Below, piece after piece: positions 354 to 63,886 of a stretch of 64,000 nucleotides of DNA. The DNA is taken from the NCBI RefSeq assembly GCF_030651915.1, contig NZ_JAUSBV010000005.1:558001-622000 (forward strand). Reading direction: 5' to 3'. The position numbers and the translations under genes are program-made. Origin of the DNA: Parvibaculum sp. GTDB taxonomy: Bacteria; Pseudomonadota; Alphaproteobacteria; Parvibaculales; Parvibaculaceae. Numbering within the stretch: the stretch's first letter is position 1; each line of letters begins with the position of its first letter. Below the pieces are notes generated by a model. It saw only the letters and a program-made list of their open reading frames with translations, was not told where the DNA came from and did no database searches.

Positions 354-507
354 GCACGCAGAGGCGCAGAGACGCAGAGAAGTGGAAGCAATCAGCATTC
401 ATTTATGTGCGGCGATGCCGGGTATTGTTGGCGGCTTCGCCGCCGGAAGTGTCTTTCGCGCCGAAGGCGCCATCAAATCTTCTCTGCGTCTCTGCGCCTC
501 TGCGTGA
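354..507. repeat. Family A palindromic element, full copy 1
   Basis: A roughly 154-bp element fills most of the 294-base gap between the oxidase and the serine hydrolase. Its ends are a perfect 28-bp inverted repeat (355-382 and 479-506) built from CACGCAGAGG-like units. The centre (about 431-470) holds GGCGGCTTCGCCGCC followed by a second small dyad. The same plan, ends and core recur at 62060-62265. Short protein-like readings across it (Arg/Ala-rich) are spurious. Nothing else is visible between 226 and 519. Confidence 0.85.
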
Positions 508-1977: not shown

Positions 1978-2073
1978 TTCACGCGGAGGCGCGGAGAAGA
2001 GAAGAATTGGTCACGCGAAGACGCGAAGGCGCGAAGGAAGAATTGTTCACGCAGAGGCGCAGAGACGCAGAGG
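1978..2073. repeat. Family A arms, three tandem partial copies
   Basis: Three direct copies of one family A arm lie in a row (about 1978-2001, 2010-2040, 2046-2073). Each starts TCACGC or TTCACGC and repeats a GxGRCGC-type unit with different A/G choices. No opposing arm is present, so these look like solo ends or remnants. They occupy the first part of the 493-base gap between the serine hydrolase and the CorC-like gene. Confidence 0.75.
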
Positions 2074-4320: not shown

Positions 4321-4388
4321 TTCACGCGGAGGCGCGGAGAAGAGGAGAAGGCAGGAAGACGGGTTCACGCGAAGACGCGAAGGCGCTC
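4321..4388. repeat. Family A arms, two tandem partial copies
   Basis: Two direct copies of the family A arm (TTCACGCGGAGGCGCGGAG at 4321 and TTCACGCGAAGACGCGAAGG at 4364) follow the acetyltransferase stop by a few bases. No opposing arm is present. Together with the frameshifted reading at 4435-4586, they account for most of the 326-base gap between 4307 and 4634. Confidence 0.75.
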
Positions 4389-4633: not shown

Positions 4634-5335
4634 TTAACCGAAGTGCATGTTACCCGTGTGAATTTCATATGGTCGAATGCGTACCGTTATCACAAGGCGC
4701 ACATCGTTCACATCTGGCTTGGCCGACACGAACTCTAGAAGTTGATCTGTTTCAACGGAAACTTTCGTGATTAGCCTGTCGTTCTCCAACAATACGAAAA
4801 ACGGCGTTTCGTTCCTTTCAGCCGTGCGCGTTTCGTAGTCCTGATTGGCATCTGGGATCGTGAGGGCGTCCAGGAGCGTCTTGAGTCGCCCGTCAATATC
4901 GCCTTGGTGAACAATTCCGCCGGGCTTGTGTGGCCTCAAAAACAGCACGTCTACCGCACAAATTAGATCCAGTTCGCTCGTCACCAACGGCACAAACTGC
5001 CATCCAAAATGAGTATGTCGTTTGGCCAACATTTCCTTTTTGGTTAACGGCGGTGTGTACCCATCTTCTGCCCTGACGGTTATAACCGACGGACCACCGC
5101 CACCCCCCTTTTTCAAGGCCGGAACGACATCCCATAAGCGTTTCAATTGGGGGTGAAACGCACTTCGCAAATTGTGTTTGTGTTCCGAGCGCCTATCCTT
5201 GCCCACACGAGAATCATTGCCGGTAGAAAGCAGACAGCCCTGATAAGTCAGCCGGAATTCCATGTACGGCGCGTCCTCCACACGGTGATACGGATTATCA
5301 TCAAAAACAGTCCGCCTTTCGCAAATATTTAACAT
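4634..5335 (-). CDS. RusA-like hypothetical protein in an AT-rich insert
   Basis: A 233-residue protein of unknown role. Residues 145-158 read QGDIDGRLKTLLDA. D146, D148 and K152 have the spacing of the acidic/lysine active-site residues in RusA Holliday-junction resolvase (D-x-D-N-x-x-K), and the following DAL matches RusA too. A conserved N-terminal segment (STGNDSRVGKDRRSEHKHNL) precedes it. A resolvase or structure-specific nuclease role is therefore plausible but inferred. Base composition is clearly lower in GC than its neighbours, and it lies between blocks of family A repeat, so it was probably acquired. I placed the start at MLNICERR; the longer open frame runs into repeat DNA. Confidence 0.7.
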   Translation of the reverse strand: MLNICERRTVFDDNPYHRVEDAPYMEFRLTYQGCLLSTGNDSRVGKDRRSEHKHNLRSAFHPQLKRLWDVVPALKKGGGGGPSVITVRAEDGYTPPLTKKEMLAKRHTHFGWQFVPLVTSELDLICAVDVLFLRPHKPGGIVHQGDIDGRLKTLLDALTIPDANQDYETRTAERNETPFFVLLENDRLITKVSVETDQLLEFVSAKPDVNDVRLVITVRIRPYEIHTGNMHFG

Positions 5336-5388: not shown

Positions 5389-5475
5389 TCTCACGCGAAG
5401 GCGCGAAGAAGGTTTGATGGCGCTTCCGCCTCCGCCAAGAGCTTCCGCCTTCGCCAAAGGCTTCGGCGGACAGGC
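5389..5475. repeat. Family A arm plus CTTCCGCC(T/C)-type tandem block
   Basis: A single family A arm (CTCACGCGAAGGCGCGAAG) is followed by a short tandem array in which GCTTCCGCC(T/C)(C/T)CGCCAA recurs about every 20 bases, ending in an inverted version GGCTTCGGCGG. This lies just upstream of the RusA-like gene, mirroring the repeat block at its other end. With family D it fills the 377-base gap 5336-5712. Confidence 0.6.
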
Positions 5476-8815: not shown

Positions 8816-8830
8816 GATGTGCCTGTGGCA

Positions 8831-8980
8831 CCCCCTCACCCTTCCCAACGCAGCGTTGCTGCGTTGGGCCCCTTCCCTCTCCCCGATGGGGAGAGGGAGA
8901 TTAAGGTGTCGACACTTCTATCCCTCTCCCCATCGGGGAGAGGGAGGGAGCCGTCGTCAGACGGCGGAAGGGTGAGGGGG
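8831..8980. repeat. Family C palindromic element, copy 1
   Basis: A 150-bp unit with outer inverted repeats CCCCCTCACCCTTCC / GGAAGGGTGAGGGGG. Inside are two copies of the hairpin CCCTCTCCCC-GATG-GGGAGAGGG (one with TCGG in the loop) and a CAACGCAGC-GTTGCTGCGTTG hairpin. It fills the gap between the MarR and lactate dehydrogenase genes and recurs at 60603-60762. Such units are common scattered repeats in proteobacterial genomes. Confidence 0.85.
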
Positions 8981-9011
8981 CGCGCGGAAATGCAGAGGGG
9001 GAGATGAACCA

Positions 9012-57666: not shown

Positions 57667-57699
57667 GGCTCGCGATCTTTTTTGACGCAGCGATTCAAC

Positions 57700-57863
57700 T
57701 TTTTCGTCATGGCCCGCTTTATGCCACTGCTGTCCGGTTTAATTTTCGAATCCAAATTTAATCGTCATGACCCGGCTTGTCCGGGTCATCCACGTCTTTC
57801 TTTTCCTCTTTCACTTGCCGCCAAGACGTGGATGGCCCGCATAAAGCGGGCCATGACGAAAAA
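57700..57863. repeat. Family E palindromic element
   Basis: A 164-bp unit with perfect 25-bp terminal inverted repeats (57700-57724 and 57839-57863; core CGTCATGGCCCGCTTTATGC). An inner pair, CCACGTCTT / AAGACGTGG, and the hairpin GACCCGGCTTGTCCGGGTC lie between. It is in the gap after mscL, 48 bases from the truncated parE. Such CGTCATGGCCCGC units are scattered in alphaproteobacteria. Confidence 0.85.
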
Positions 57864-57910
57864 GGGGGAAGGCAAAGTGTCAGAGGCGGTTTGGATAAAA
57901 ACCTGCCCCT

Positions 57911-60558: not shown

Positions 60559-60602
60559 GGGCGGCAACATAGCGGGCGGGTCTTCTTTCGCAAAACGGGG
60601 CG

Positions 60603-60762
60603 CCCCCTCACCCTTCCGCGGGCTGACGCCCGCTCCCTCCCTCTCCCCGCTGGGGAGAGGGATCAGAATGGAATTTGCCTGTGCACTTTAAATTCCCCTC
60701 TCCCCTCCGGGGAGAGGGAAGGGGCCCATCGTCGCGCAGCGACGGTGGGAAGGGTGAGGGGG
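60603..60762. repeat. Family C palindromic element, copy 2
   Basis: A 160-bp unit with outer repeats CCCCCTCACCCTTCC / GGAAGGGTGAGGGGG and two inner CCCTCTCCCC/GGGGAGAGGG hairpins, the same plan as 8831-8980. The side hairpins differ (GCGGGCTGACGCCCGC; CGTCGCGCAGCGACG). It lies between the divergent glycosyltransferase and radical SAM genes. Confidence 0.85.
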
Positions 60763-60784
60763 AGCCACACACCATATCGAAAAT

Positions 60785-60822: not shown

Positions 60823-62043
60823 ATGTCTTCGAGTCACGAATCAGTGCGCTCCGGCCGCCCCGCCCCTGCCCCCGCCAATTCCCCGATTGGCCCCGTGGCG
60901 GCAAGCGGCCCGGATGCACGGACCCGGTCCCCGTCCCCCGCGGGGCCCCCCTCGTACCCCCCGAGGGTCCGTGCCACCCCTCTGCCCGAGAACGGCCGCC
61001 GCGGCCGGGGCGCATTGACGAATACCAGCGGCCGCTTCGAGCCACAGGCCCGCGAGCCGCTCGACGACGGCTGGGGCGGGCTCGATGCGCCGCCGCCGCT
61101 GAAAACCCATGTCACCTCGGAAACGGCGCGCGCGGTGCTGACGCGCAATTCCTCGCCCGATCTTCCCTTCGACCGTTCGATCAATCCCTATCGCGGCTGT
61201 GAGCATGGCTGCATCTACTGCTTCGCGCGGCCGACCCATGCCTATATGGGCCTCTCGCCCGGTCTCGATTTCGAGAGCCGGTTGTTTGCCAAGCCCAATG
61301 CCGCCGCGCTGCTGGAGAAGGAACTGGCGCGGGCGAATTACGACCCGGCGCCGATCGCGCTCGGCACCAATACCGATCCCTATCAGCCGATCGAACAGCG
61401 CTACCGCATCACGCGCAGCCTTCTCGAAGTCATGTCGGCCTATAACCACCCCGTCACCATCGTTACCAAATCGGCGCGCGTCACCCGCGATCTCGACATT
61501 CTCTCGTCGATGGCGGAACGCAATCTCGTCAAGGTCTATCTCTCGGTGACGACGCTCGATGCGAAGCTTGCCCGCATGCTGGAGCCGCGCGCCTCGACGC
61601 CGGCGCGCCGCATGGAGGCGATCTCGATGCTGGCGCAAGCCGGCGTGCCCACCGGCGTCATGGTCGCGCCGGTGATTCCGGCGCTGACCGACAGCGAGAT
61701 GGAAAAAATCCTGACCGGTGCGGCCTATGCCGGCGCGAAGGAAGCCGGTTTCATCCTGCTGCGCCTGCCGCTCGAAATCAAAGACCTGTTCCGCGAATGG
61801 CTGGAGGAAAACAAGCCCGACGCCGCCGCCCATGTGATGTCGCTGATCCGCCAGATGCGCGGCGGCAAGGATTACGATGCGGAATGGGGCAAACGCATGC
61901 GCGGCGACGGCCCCTATGCCTGGCAACTCGCGCGGCGCTTCGAACTCGCCACAAAGAAACTCGGCATCGCCAAAAAATCCGGCACCCTCGACTGCACCCG
62001 CTTCCTCGTCCCCGGCCGCGGCAAACAACTGGCCCTGCTTTAA
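60823..62043 (+). CDS. PA0069/Rv2578c-family radical SAM protein
   Basis: A 406-residue radical SAM protein. A Pro/Arg-rich N-terminus (1-65) is followed by the core. The cluster motif is C126-x3-C130-x2-C133 (RGCEHGCIYCFARP), with ALGTNTDPYQPIE next, and KVYLSVTTLD and LARMLEPRASTPARRMEAI. The family is a distant relative of spore photoproduct lyase; its reaction is unknown. An SOS box stands 24 bases before the ATG, which hints at DNA repair. Confidence 0.88.
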   Translation: MSSSHESVRSGRPAPAPANSPIGPVAASGPDARTRSPSPAGPPSYPPRVRATPLPENGRRGRGALTNTSGRFEPQAREPLDDGWGGLDAPPPLKTHVTSETARAVLTRNSSPDLPFDRSINPYRGCEHGCIYCFARPTHAYMGLSPGLDFESRLFAKPNAAALLEKELARANYDPAPIALGTNTDPYQPIEQRYRITRSLLEVMSAYNHPVTIVTKSARVTRDLDILSSMAERNLVKVYLSVTTLDAKLARMLEPRASTPARRMEAISMLAQAGVPTGVMVAPVIPALTDSEMEKILTGAAYAGAKEAGFILLRLPLEIKDLFREWLEENKPDAAAHVMSLIRQMRGGKDYDAEWGKRMRGDGPYAWQLARRFELATKKLGIAKKSGTLDCTRFLVPGRGKQLALL

Positions 62044-62059
62044 GGAAGAAAAGGTTTTT

Positions 62060-62265
62060 GCACGCGGAGACGCGGAGGCGCGGAGAAGAGGAAGCAGCAG
62101 GTGCCGATATATGGGTGGCCATGACCGGATATTGATGGCGGCTTCGCCGCCGAAGGTTTCTTCGCGCCAAAGGCGCAACAATTGAATTTGTTATGACGCC
62201 GCATGGAGAACGAAAGCCCTCGTAACTTCCATATCTCTTCTCCGCGCCTCCGCGTCTCCGCGTGC
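62060..62265. repeat. Family A palindromic element, full copy 2
   Basis: A 206-bp unit with perfect 31-bp terminal inverted repeats (62060-62090 and 62235-62265) built of CGCGGAG-type units. The centre has GGCGGCTTCGCCGCCGAAGG and a following CGCGCCAAAGGCGC dyad, the same core as in copy 1. It ends 38 bases before the GxxExxY gene. It fills the gap after the radical SAM gene. Confidence 0.88.
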
Positions 62266-62303
62266 CAAAAACGACCCTGACCCAGGATTCAGGTATTAAA
62301 GAT

Positions 62304-62744
62304 ATGGCAGTCCAGATCAGAGAACTCGATGAAGTGACCGGCGAAATCGTCGACGCAGCTTACAAGCTGCACAAAGGTCTTGGCCCCGGTCTGCTGGAAT
62401 CTGTCTATGAAGCGGTACTCGAAAAAGACCTTCGGCGTCGCGGTTTGCTCGTGGAGCGGCAGAAGGCCGTGTCATTTGAATATGACGGCATGCGTTTCAC
62501 CGATGGTTTCCGGATCGACCTGCTGGTGGACACTCGGGTCGTGGTTGAGATTAAATCCGTGGAAGTGCTGCTACCGGTTCATTCAAAGCAGGTCTTGACC
62601 TATCTGCGACTTCTGTATCTTCCGGTCGGATTGTTGATCAACTTTGGCGCGCCCACGTTGAAAGAGGGTGTGCGACGGATCGTCAGCGATCTCTCGCCAT
62701 CCGCCTCGTCGCAACTCCGCGTGAACCGGAACAAGGTTTCCTGA
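62304..62744 (+). CDS. GxxExxY-family protein, PD-(D/E)XK-like
   Basis: A 146-residue protein of the GxxExxY family (G29-L-L-E32-S-V-Y35). D72 in GFRIDLLVD and E82-x-K84 in VVVEIKSVE fit a PD-(D/E)XK nuclease core, followed by a Q in SKQVLTYLR; nuclease activity is inferred. Family A repeat lies 38 bases upstream. Its last codons (SASSQLRVNRN) run over a decayed family A arm. ATG 62304 is preferred to a GTG at 62262 that lies in the repeat. Lower GC than neighbours. Confidence 0.85.
   Translation: MAVQIRELDEVTGEIVDAAYKLHKGLGPGLLESVYEAVLEKDLRRRGLLVERQKAVSFEYDGMRFTDGFRIDLLVDTRVVVEIKSVEVLLPVHSKQVLTYLRLLYLPVGLLINFGAPTLKEGVRRIVSDLSPSASSQLRVNRNKVS
62697..62732. repeat. Decayed family A arm at the GxxExxY gene end
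   Basis: CATCCGCCTCGTCGCAACT then CCGCGTGAAC resembles one family A arm (ending CTCCGCGTGAAC exactly) in the same orientation as the arm at 62235. The rest has drifted. It is read as the C-terminus of the GxxExxY protein. Confidence 0.5.
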
Positions 62745-62801
62745 CTCATCGTTTGTTTCACAGCGCGCTTTGTCCTGTACCGACAACCCGAGGAGGTTTT
62801 C

Positions 62802-63206
62802 ATGATGGAGTTTCGTTGCGGGCGGCTGATCGATCATCTGCATCTGGTGGTGCGCGATCTTGAGGCCAGCAAGCGTTTCTACAAGGCGGTGCTCGGCGTT
62901 GTCGGCGTGCCCTTCGGCATGGAGACCGATGATTTCTTCGAGGCCGACGAGCTTTTCGTCAGCCACGGCGAGGCGCTTTCGCATGTTCATCTCGCTTTCC
63001 AGACCAGGGACCGGGCCATGGTCGATGCCTTCCACAAGGCGGCGCTGGCCGCCGGCGGGCGCGACAATGGCGCGCCGGGCGAGCGGCAATATCATCCGGG
63101 CTACTACGCCGCCTTCGTCCTCGACCCCGACGGCAACAATATCGAGGCGGTCTTTCACGGGGCCTCGACGCGCAGCGCCGACGCCGTCGTGGTGACGCCG
63201 GCCTGA
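62802..63206 (+). CDS. VOC-family (glyoxalase-like) protein
   Basis: A 134-residue vicinal-oxygen-chelate protein. It has the N-terminal [20 protein letters not shown] and the C-terminal [21 protein letters not shown]. Metal ligands may be H13, H63 and E127. Substrate unknown. GAGGAGGTTTTC precedes the ATG. Confidence 0.88.
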
Positions 63207-63253
63207 GCGCCGCGCACTGGCATCGCCTCCCCTTTCGCGGCACACTCCGGCCC

Positions 63254-63886
63254 ATGCCGCGCGCCTTGAAAAACCCGCTTCCCGATTTTCGCTTCGAGCT
63301 TGAGGCCGGGCATCCGCGCCTCATCGTCTGCGGCGTCGACGAGGCGGGACGCGGGCCCTGGGCGGGGCCGGTGGTCGCCGCCGCCGTCATTCTCGATGCG
63401 GCCCGCATTCCACCCGGCCTCAACGATTCCAAGAAACTCGATGCGGCGCGGCGCGAAGATCTTTTCGCGCAGCTTCAAAAATCCGCCGCCATCGGCATCG
63501 GCGAGGCCAGCGTCGCCGAAATCGACCGCCTCAACATCCTCAAGGCGACCATGCTCGCCATGTCCCGCGCCGTCGCCGCGCTCGGCACCGCGCCCCACTT
63601 CGCCCTGATCGACGGCAACCGCCTGCCCGATCTCGCCTGCCCGGCGCGGGCGATCGTCAAGGGCGACGCGCTGTCGCTGTCGGTCGCCGCCGCCTCGATC
63701 GCGGCCAAGACCGTCCGTGACCGGACGATGTGCGATCTCGCCCGCGCCCATCCCGGCTACGGCTTCGAGCGCCACAAGGGTTACGGCACGGCTGCGCACC
63801 AGGCAGCGCTTTCCAGCCTCGGGCCCTGCGCGGCGCACCGTTCGAGCTTTGCCCCTATACGCAAGATGTTGAGTCCGGCTGCCTGA
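63254..63886 (+). CDS. rnhB: Ribonuclease HII
   Basis: A 210-residue RNase HII that removes RNA from DNA hybrids and single ribonucleotides. The active site D29-E30 lies in [35 protein letters not shown] and [11 protein letters not shown] are conserved. In many alphaproteobacteria ccrM follows rnhB. Confidence 0.96.

Follow-up and report, generated by a model that had tools for sequence, protein, structure and literature searches.

GxxExxY genes and the palindromic repeats that enclose them probably constitute one co-evolving unit, whose gene-less copies are dispersed by protein-driven cutting and repair. The genes are bracketed by inverted arms, the arms are dispersed through genomes, gene and repeat co-occur across genomes, and one arm grammar is common to many phyla. 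Furthermore, the arm type matches the protein subfamily, the element is present or absent at a single site, and its two arms change jointly. From this we infer that the protein recognizes and cleaves the arms and that these spread by repair. The window, i.e. the whole stretch of 64,000 nucleotides from Parvibaculum sp. that was analysed, had been predicted to contain a gene-plus-repeat system. That gene and repeat form one unit is supported by the enrichment and co-occurrence described below, and the further proposal that the protein processes or mobilizes the hairpins is consistent with the data.

The identity of the predicted gene is confirmed by two models, both of which the window protein fits over its full length: it reaches 132 bits against TIGR04256 (GxxExxY, cut-off 35) in a profile search and 131 bits against PF13366 (PDDEXK_3, cut-off 22) in Pfam. 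Besides scoring above the curated cut-offs it contains the G-x-x-E-x-x-Y motif and the D...ExK residues of the family. The names of the two models carry neither a biological role nor a link to repeats. The arrangement of D72 and E82-x-K84 proposed for the protein (numbering from the ATG at 62304) is also found, with all three residues unchanged across 44 aligned sequences; among 12 sequences chosen with greater diversity, D72 and K84 are again unchanged and E82 is nearly so. An AlphaFold2 model based on the 44-sequence alignment is confident (pLDDT 88.9, pTM 0.82). Foldseek searches of the PDB with this model give weak top matches, none of them at E 0.001, mostly to PD-(D/E)XK or tRNA-splicing-type nucleases and including SSO0001 (4ic1, E 5e-3), which we take to be a Cas4 protein, a tRNA-splicing endonuclease, the CinA-CinB complex and LHK-Exo. 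These weak structural matches suggest a PD-(D/E)XK-type fold with predicted nuclease activity. Pfam returned PDDEXK_3 and one sub-threshold Cas4 match and nothing else, neither Pfam nor the PDB fold search revealed a transposase domain, and a PDB sequence search gave a single match at E 0.83. Seven plasmid records and no phage records were obtained by tblastn with the window protein.

The window genome (G000, 3.5 Mb) carries one GxxExxY gene. Of the five genomes of the genus that carry the gene, two have copies containing one in-frame stop each (L034 and L035; TGA and TAG), reflecting either decay or a sequencing fault. Open frames of GxxExxY genes can begin within the adjoining arm, for example at 62262 in the window and in L038, and where this is the case the annotated N-terminus may be translated repeat.

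A full element of the repeat family (family A) was predicted to end shortly before the gene, and it is present there (Table 1). Its 36-nt arms are 97% complementary and 144 nt apart. Folded as single-stranded DNA, positions 62050-62275 give a z-score of -11.3, with 0 of 200 shuffles as good. Depending on the choice of arm end, 33-39 nt separate the right arm from the ATG. The decayed arm proposed for the last codons is equally well supported: the 3' end of the gene scores 15 against the arm consensus, a value that 0 of 500 codon shuffles reach. The match is detected in all four other genus copies, with scores of 14, 13.5, 10 and 11.5 that are reached by 0, 2, 10 and 4 shuffles per 500, respectively, the weakest being L034. 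The unit is present in the window in a worn state, with an intact palindrome of the same family just upstream and a decayed 3' arm. A chance inverted repeat is ruled out by the fold z-score together with the bracketing counts relative to controls (see below). Rfam gave three matches on 61500-63400, all below the gathering score.

Table 1. Positions in the window of the GxxExxY gene, its palindrome and further arms of the same family.
Feature	Position	Strand	Description
GxxExxY / PDDEXK_3 nuclease-fold gene	62304..62744	+	146 aa from ATG 62304; D72, E82, K84 catalytic-type
Left arm, upstream palindrome	62055..62090	+	GG subtype: CACGCGGAG ACGCGGAG GCGCGGAG + purine tail
Loop, upstream palindrome	62091..62234	+	small internal hairpins
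Right arm, upstream palindrome	62235..62270	+	inverted-repeat search, fold
Decayed right arm	62702..62735	+	overlaps last codons of GxxExxY gene
Gene-less palindrome, same family	355..506	.	arms 355-382, 479-506; 100% complementary; AG subtype
Three successive left arms (GG, GA, AG subtypes)	1978..2072	+	no inverted partners; arms ~1978, ~2012, ~2048
Two successive left arms (GG, GA subtypes)	4321..4386	+	second arm ~4366
One lone arm, GA subtype	5389..5412	+	inverted-repeat and pattern search

Solo arms had been listed at about 1978, 4321 and 5389. These are present, but the list was incomplete, as the window also holds the palindrome at 355-506 and arms near 2012, 2048 and 4366. Nor are the arms confined to a few places: exact CACGCRRAGRCGCRRAG is found 131 times in the 3.5-Mb genome, compared to 1 match for the reversed pattern. 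In the relatives G018 and G024 the palindrome at 355-506 is absent from the corresponding place, and a 492-bp stretch surrounding the three successive left arms, behind which lies a C-rich palindrome of a different family, is missing as well. In G018, G024 and G033 the flanks are too diverged to place the insertion ends exactly. A gene at about 4634-5332 on the minus strand, for which Pfam gives no match, is flanked by family A arms that run in direct rather than inverted orientation, and this stretch is missing from G018. The name RusA-like, which the original prediction had used for a gene bordered by solo arms, is unconfirmed, with no Pfam match at E 0.01.

By eye, most arms of G000 belong to three internally uniform subtypes with units GCGGAG, GCGAAG and GCAGAG at a period of 8. 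They are often nested, with GG outermost, GA second and AG innermost, and purine-rich spacers stand opposite pyrimidine-rich ones. Within the examined stretches, 18 of 41 arm clusters contain both orientations by our own count, which used a looser arm pattern so that some single matches are possibly due to chance. Reversing the pattern RCRCRRAGRCRCRRAG does not yield a good null, as arms are picked up by the reversed form too, and stricter patterns were used thereafter. Tandem runs of an 8-nt unit, possibly expanded arms, occur in G421:C29, at the contig start, and in G174:C1.

The relation between gene and arms was then analysed across genomes by aligning the 300 nt in front of each domain to the reverse-complemented 300 nt behind it, with a score of at least 16 called as bracketing. 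Set 1 comprised 80 loci out of a longer match list from a genome contig scan, of which 76 were usable after exclusion of three loci without a regular motif and one with a short flank. By our assignment from the record titles it spans 12 phyla (Pseudomonadota, Verrucomicrobiota, Cyanobacteria, Chloroflexota, Planctomycetota, Bacteroidota, Acidobacteriota, Gemmatimonadota, Desulfobacterota, SAR324, KSB1 and WOR-3). The gene lies between matching inverted arms in 65/76 loci, compared to 2/594 control windows with identical geometry at other positions of these loci. Eleven phyla include scores of at least 16; the one exception is WOR-3, with a locus at 14.5. Set 2 was drawn from a 397-genome sample of the window's phylum (taken as Pseudomonadota); 55 of 69 profile matches were used, the others being 12 fragments, a locus that could not be placed and the gene of the window itself. 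Here bracketing is seen in 42/55 loci and 0/200 controls, while 13 loci score below 16. Set 3, from 219 genomes of family f6 (taken as Sphingomonadaceae), used 64 of 67 matches and shows bracketing in 56/64 loci, with eight below 16, and in 0/222 controls. Sets 2 and 3 share six genes. The enrichment of arms near GxxExxY genes that had been put forward as a check is thus observed.

As the arms share one grammar, mismatched flank pairs (left of one gene, right of another) also score, and part of each bracketing score reflects this common grammar: values of at least 16 were obtained for 128 of 760 such pairs in set 1 and for 11 of 432 and 71 of 502 in sets 2 and 3, respectively. An arm consists of a few units of about 7-11 nt with the pattern RCRCNNAG, or CRCNNAT/AA in a second protein subfamily. 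Unit type follows the protein: elements with GLLE proteins have AG units in 139 cases and AT or AA units in 3, whereas the corresponding numbers for GFLE are 0 and 9 (p 2.5e-12, uncorrected for ancestry). Outside this comparison are 15 elements with other or unparsed proteins (12 AG, 3 AT) and two without countable units.

Co-occurrence of arms and gene was assessed with a strict 24-mer arm in the 219 f6 genomes, 45 of which have the gene above the cut-off and 174 do not. At least one arm is present in 34/45 genomes with the gene versus 23/174 without (Fisher 1.5e-15), and at least five arms in 22/45 versus 11/174 (p 2e-10); some 24-mer counts (G421, G174, G168, G267) represent tandem runs and not dispersed arms. 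The threshold of five rules out that the counts merely reflect the gene's own two arms. When labels are permuted within genera the association persists (p = 5e-5), and among 26 mixed genera the arm number is higher with the gene in 19, lower in 3 and tied in 4. An equal frequency of arms in genomes lacking the gene, which would have spoken against a link, is therefore not observed. The within-genus test and the bracketing in many phyla also rule out that the link is an accident of one clade. Eleven of the 45 gene-bearing f6 genomes have zero 24-mer arms. Among 40 genomes of the window's family, the top five places in arm number (228, 138, 59, 54 and 35) are taken by the five with GxxExxY, and the next counts are 27, 25 and 19; within the window's genus the five genes reside at one locus, so that the correlation there amounts to roughly one evolutionary event.

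Solo arms resemble the gene arms of their own genome more than those of other genomes (19.3 versus 18.0 of 24, p = 0.006); in this comparison of a subset of arms from 10 genomes, the own gene ranks first in 4/10 and 7th to 9th in another four. There are up to eight GxxExxY copies per genome (G523). Over the well-aligned parts of their DNA these eight share 64-76% identity, a short exact match being the one exception, and this indicates that the gene has not recently been jumping and that the numerous form is the gene-less palindrome.

The same correlations bear on the possibility that GxxExxY is a passenger, i.e. that another enzyme, a RAYT/Y1 or IS transposase, spreads the palindromes and the gene inserts into them or survives best inside them. 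Arm-rich f6 genomes without a detected gene do exist (G495 with 23 arms, G228 with 21, G492 with 17, G603 with 14, G334 with 12, G511 and G612 with 11 each), and the same intergenic sites, between rSAM and RNase HII genes and between fabD and fabG, accept unrelated palindromes, some with unrelated genes. We nevertheless regard this explanation as unlikely, since arm type follows the GxxExxY subfamily, a single arm grammar accompanies the gene in many phyla, and arm number follows the gene within genera. In addition, the arms do not carry the tag of REP sequences: in the examined G000 regions GTAG lies at most 12 nt before the arm in 1/105 cases and CGTC in none, which also rules out a known REP family with a GTAG tag.

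The fabD/fabG site in f6 allows the element to be followed at a fixed position. Among 57 distinct junctions, 37 hold distinct elements, with a spacing of 462-1281 bp. For comparison, 20 distinct junctions were readable in 22 chosen f6 genomes without the gene. Nine of them are clean and empty (5-25 bp), and in G228 a lone right arm remains, which we interpret as a loss of the gene. Unrelated sequence or different palindromes fill the remaining ten. Unrelated palindromes or a lone arm are seen by eye at fabD/fabG in L376, L384, L387, L391 and L392, as if such intergenic sites were common landing places. A Sphingomonas-like fabD/fabG locus is found in a record titled Arthrobacter sp. TPD3018 (L189), a label that is probably wrong. 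Distances between GxxExxY proteins at this site track those between fabD (r 0.38) and fabG (r 0.44), with 0.61 for fabD versus fabG, suggesting that inheritance may be largely vertical. As intergenic lengths vary, the insertion ends at fabD/fabG are not placed exactly.

Presence and absence at one site is reminiscent of homing endonuclease genes, families of which have GIY-YIG, PD-(D/E)XK and Vsr-like folds. In common with these, GxxExxY is a small nuclease-type gene with filled and empty alleles at a fixed site (37 and nine clean ones at fabD/fabG) and no transposase. In contrast to homing genes it is wrapped in inverted arms that are also found gene-less at many unrelated sites, and no intron or intein is seen. 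A selfish gene of the homing type, with the nuclease cutting the empty intergenic site, homologous repair copying in the element and solo palindromes being dead remnants, would explain the clean presence or absence in many genomes, the lone arm in the gene-less G228 and the nuclease-type fold. It is nonetheless improbable in our view, considering that G000 has 131 arms for one gene, far above one remnant per lost gene, that the G000 palindromes examined are gene-less and several share loop motifs of their own (by eye), and that the empty fabD/fabG sites have no evident common target sequence, again by eye.

The two arms of an element change together. Within one fabD/fabG element the arms are 0.933 identical, compared to 0.797-0.805 between different elements (p = 5e-5; 29 of 37 elements parsed, eight skipped). 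One arm position illustrates this, with G/G in 15, A/A in 13 and a mismatch in 1 of the 29 elements. Selection on an mRNA hairpin, with the arms regulating the gene or operon and the protein acting elsewhere, for instance as a defence nuclease, would agree with the frequent co-directionality of neighbours, both of which lie on the strand of the gene for 33/64 GxxExxY genes, and with genes located within gene runs such as fabD-fabG. However, the 306 transition mismatches between arms of 150 elements from all sets comprise 146 G-U pairs on the sense strand and 160 A-C pairs. This lack of a G-U excess shows that complementarity or copying of DNA is maintained rather than an mRNA hairpin, which is thereby ruled out as the chief cause of arm pairing. 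With arms also dispersed without the gene and PADLOC giving only weak matches (E 0.008 or worse), selection on mRNA together with a role such as defence appears very unlikely as an overall explanation.

Joint change might also arise with the protein uninvolved, from replication-slippage repair of quasi-palindromes alone. Repair by template switching can hold palindromes perfect with no dedicated enzyme, which favours this explanation for the joint change of the arms. It leaves unexplained, however, the co-occurrence of arms and gene across genomes, the common arm grammar across phyla and the match of the arms to the protein subfamily, and we give it a low probability as a full account.

Among known systems, RAYT (TnpA-REP)/REPIN is closest in organization. 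Excerpts of PMC8049555 describe RAYTs as single-copy and vertically inherited and REPINs as commoner in E. coli genomes having a RAYT, and an excerpt of PMC8266576 describes the HUH chemistry and the GTAG tag. In the GxxExxY unit, too, a gene that is probably inherited vertically at least in part is tied to palindromic repeats and bordered by them according to the bracketing tests, and many dispersed non-autonomous copies, with mosaic arms, are commoner in gene-bearing genomes. Unlike the HUH/Y1 transposase RAYT, the GxxExxY enzyme is of a predicted PD-(D/E)XK-type fold, the arms are periodic units of 7-11 nt with no GTAG tag, the palindrome has the gene as its loop, and in some genomes several diverged genes are present. 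The analogy to REP-associated transposases drawn in the original prediction therefore holds at the level of the system and fails for the enzyme, for which Pfam finds no transposase. Given this lack of a transposase domain and the near absence of GTAG at the arms, the unit is not a RAYT/REPIN member; on the best reading it may work like one, with cutting and movement proposed by analogy. MITEs and IS elements likewise have inverted terminal repeats and gene-bearing and gene-less forms. They differ from GxxExxY, which has no transposase domain and whose two arms change jointly at one fixed position. Inspection by eye of fabD/fabG and of the G000/G018/G024 sites, with their diverged flanks, revealed no target-site duplication.

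In a search of 5.39 million papers, GxxExxY is mentioned in two, PMC8934634 and PMC12085832. A literature search with preprints outside its scope found no mention of PDDEXK_3. Judged by title and the start of the abstract, none of the literature matches listed, preprints again lying outside the scope, reports nuclease genes inside dispersed palindromes. Searches with six arm sequences gave an unrelated match only, and none of the literature matches listed for DUF559 with repeats names DUF559.

Taken together, we favour the reading of gene and palindrome as one unit, for which the following mechanism can be envisaged. In a complete unit a short gene would form the loop, flanked by two inverted arms that each consist of a few units of about 7-11 nt, and palindromes that have arms of this kind and no gene would be dispersed copies that rely on the GxxExxY protein. 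The protein might recognize the arm units, either in duplex DNA or in an extruded hairpin, and nick or cut at the arms. A hydrolytic nuclease has no joining activity itself. Host repair would then take another palindrome as template, such that one site receives the arms and loops of another, and copying may occasionally reach new sites. The GxxExxY gene itself would mostly stay in place and be inherited largely vertically, as is the case for RAYT genes with REPINs.

Other nuclease genes are found in a similar arrangement. GxxExxY resides between rSAM and RNase HII genes in the window, and at this site GIY-YIG genes are present in L100, L103, L108, L109, L111 and L112, one typed example of which reaches 60.9 bits with the GIY-YIG profile. 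Further genus-mates without GxxExxY have, by eye, palindromes alone (L101, L107, L113, L114), a DUF559 gene with C-rich palindromes (L110), another gene (L119) or a nearly empty site (L102, L115-L118). A motif search of ten loci yielded seven GIY-YIG genes, the six at this site and L265, of which 5/7 score at least 23 within their own inverted repeats and 2/7 about 9. The enclosing repeats are of the CCGGCGAAAGCCGG type. DUF559 genes of the genus, which we assume to be Vsr-like, are bracketed by C-rich palindromes in 17/26 usable loci versus 0/94 elsewhere (L152-L181; 30 loci of 36 matches, 26 usable).

The window itself contains palindromes of these kinds. Those at 8824-8983 and 60600-60769 are C-rich, of the CCCTCTCCCC type that encloses DUF559 genes in relatives, and are 82-92% mutually complementary over 64-79 nt. 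Palindromic repeats of the form GTCATGGCCCGC...GCGGGCCATGAC lie at 57699-57864, and in G018 (L262) sequence of this type encloses a GIY-YIG-like gene that was seen by eye and missed by the motif search.

The arrangement of the GIY-YIG and DUF559 genes suggests a class of nuclease-palindrome pairs. It is conceivable, though we put this forward tentatively and with less than even confidence, that they form a separate class of mobile DNA, in which small hydrolytic nucleases of several unrelated folds (the PD-(D/E)XK type of GxxExxY, GIY-YIG and DUF559/Vsr-like) are each the loop of their own palindrome and recognize its arms; with no transposase, cutting followed by host repair would disperse copies lacking the gene through the genome. 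If true, nuclease-palindrome pairs would have produced a large part of the palindromic DNA that is scattered through the genomes of many bacterial phyla.

For GxxExxY, a widespread family to which neither the libraries nor the papers found assign a role, the palindrome enclosing its own gene now provides a testable partner, and with 37 distinct elements at fabD/fabG and the same site empty in relatives of the family the question is directly testable. The unit is also a candidate source of the large palindrome families that are scattered through bacterial genomes. Should the nuclease be what makes these spread, it would represent a second, independently evolved answer to the task of RAYT/REP systems, achieved by an enzyme that is unable to join DNA.
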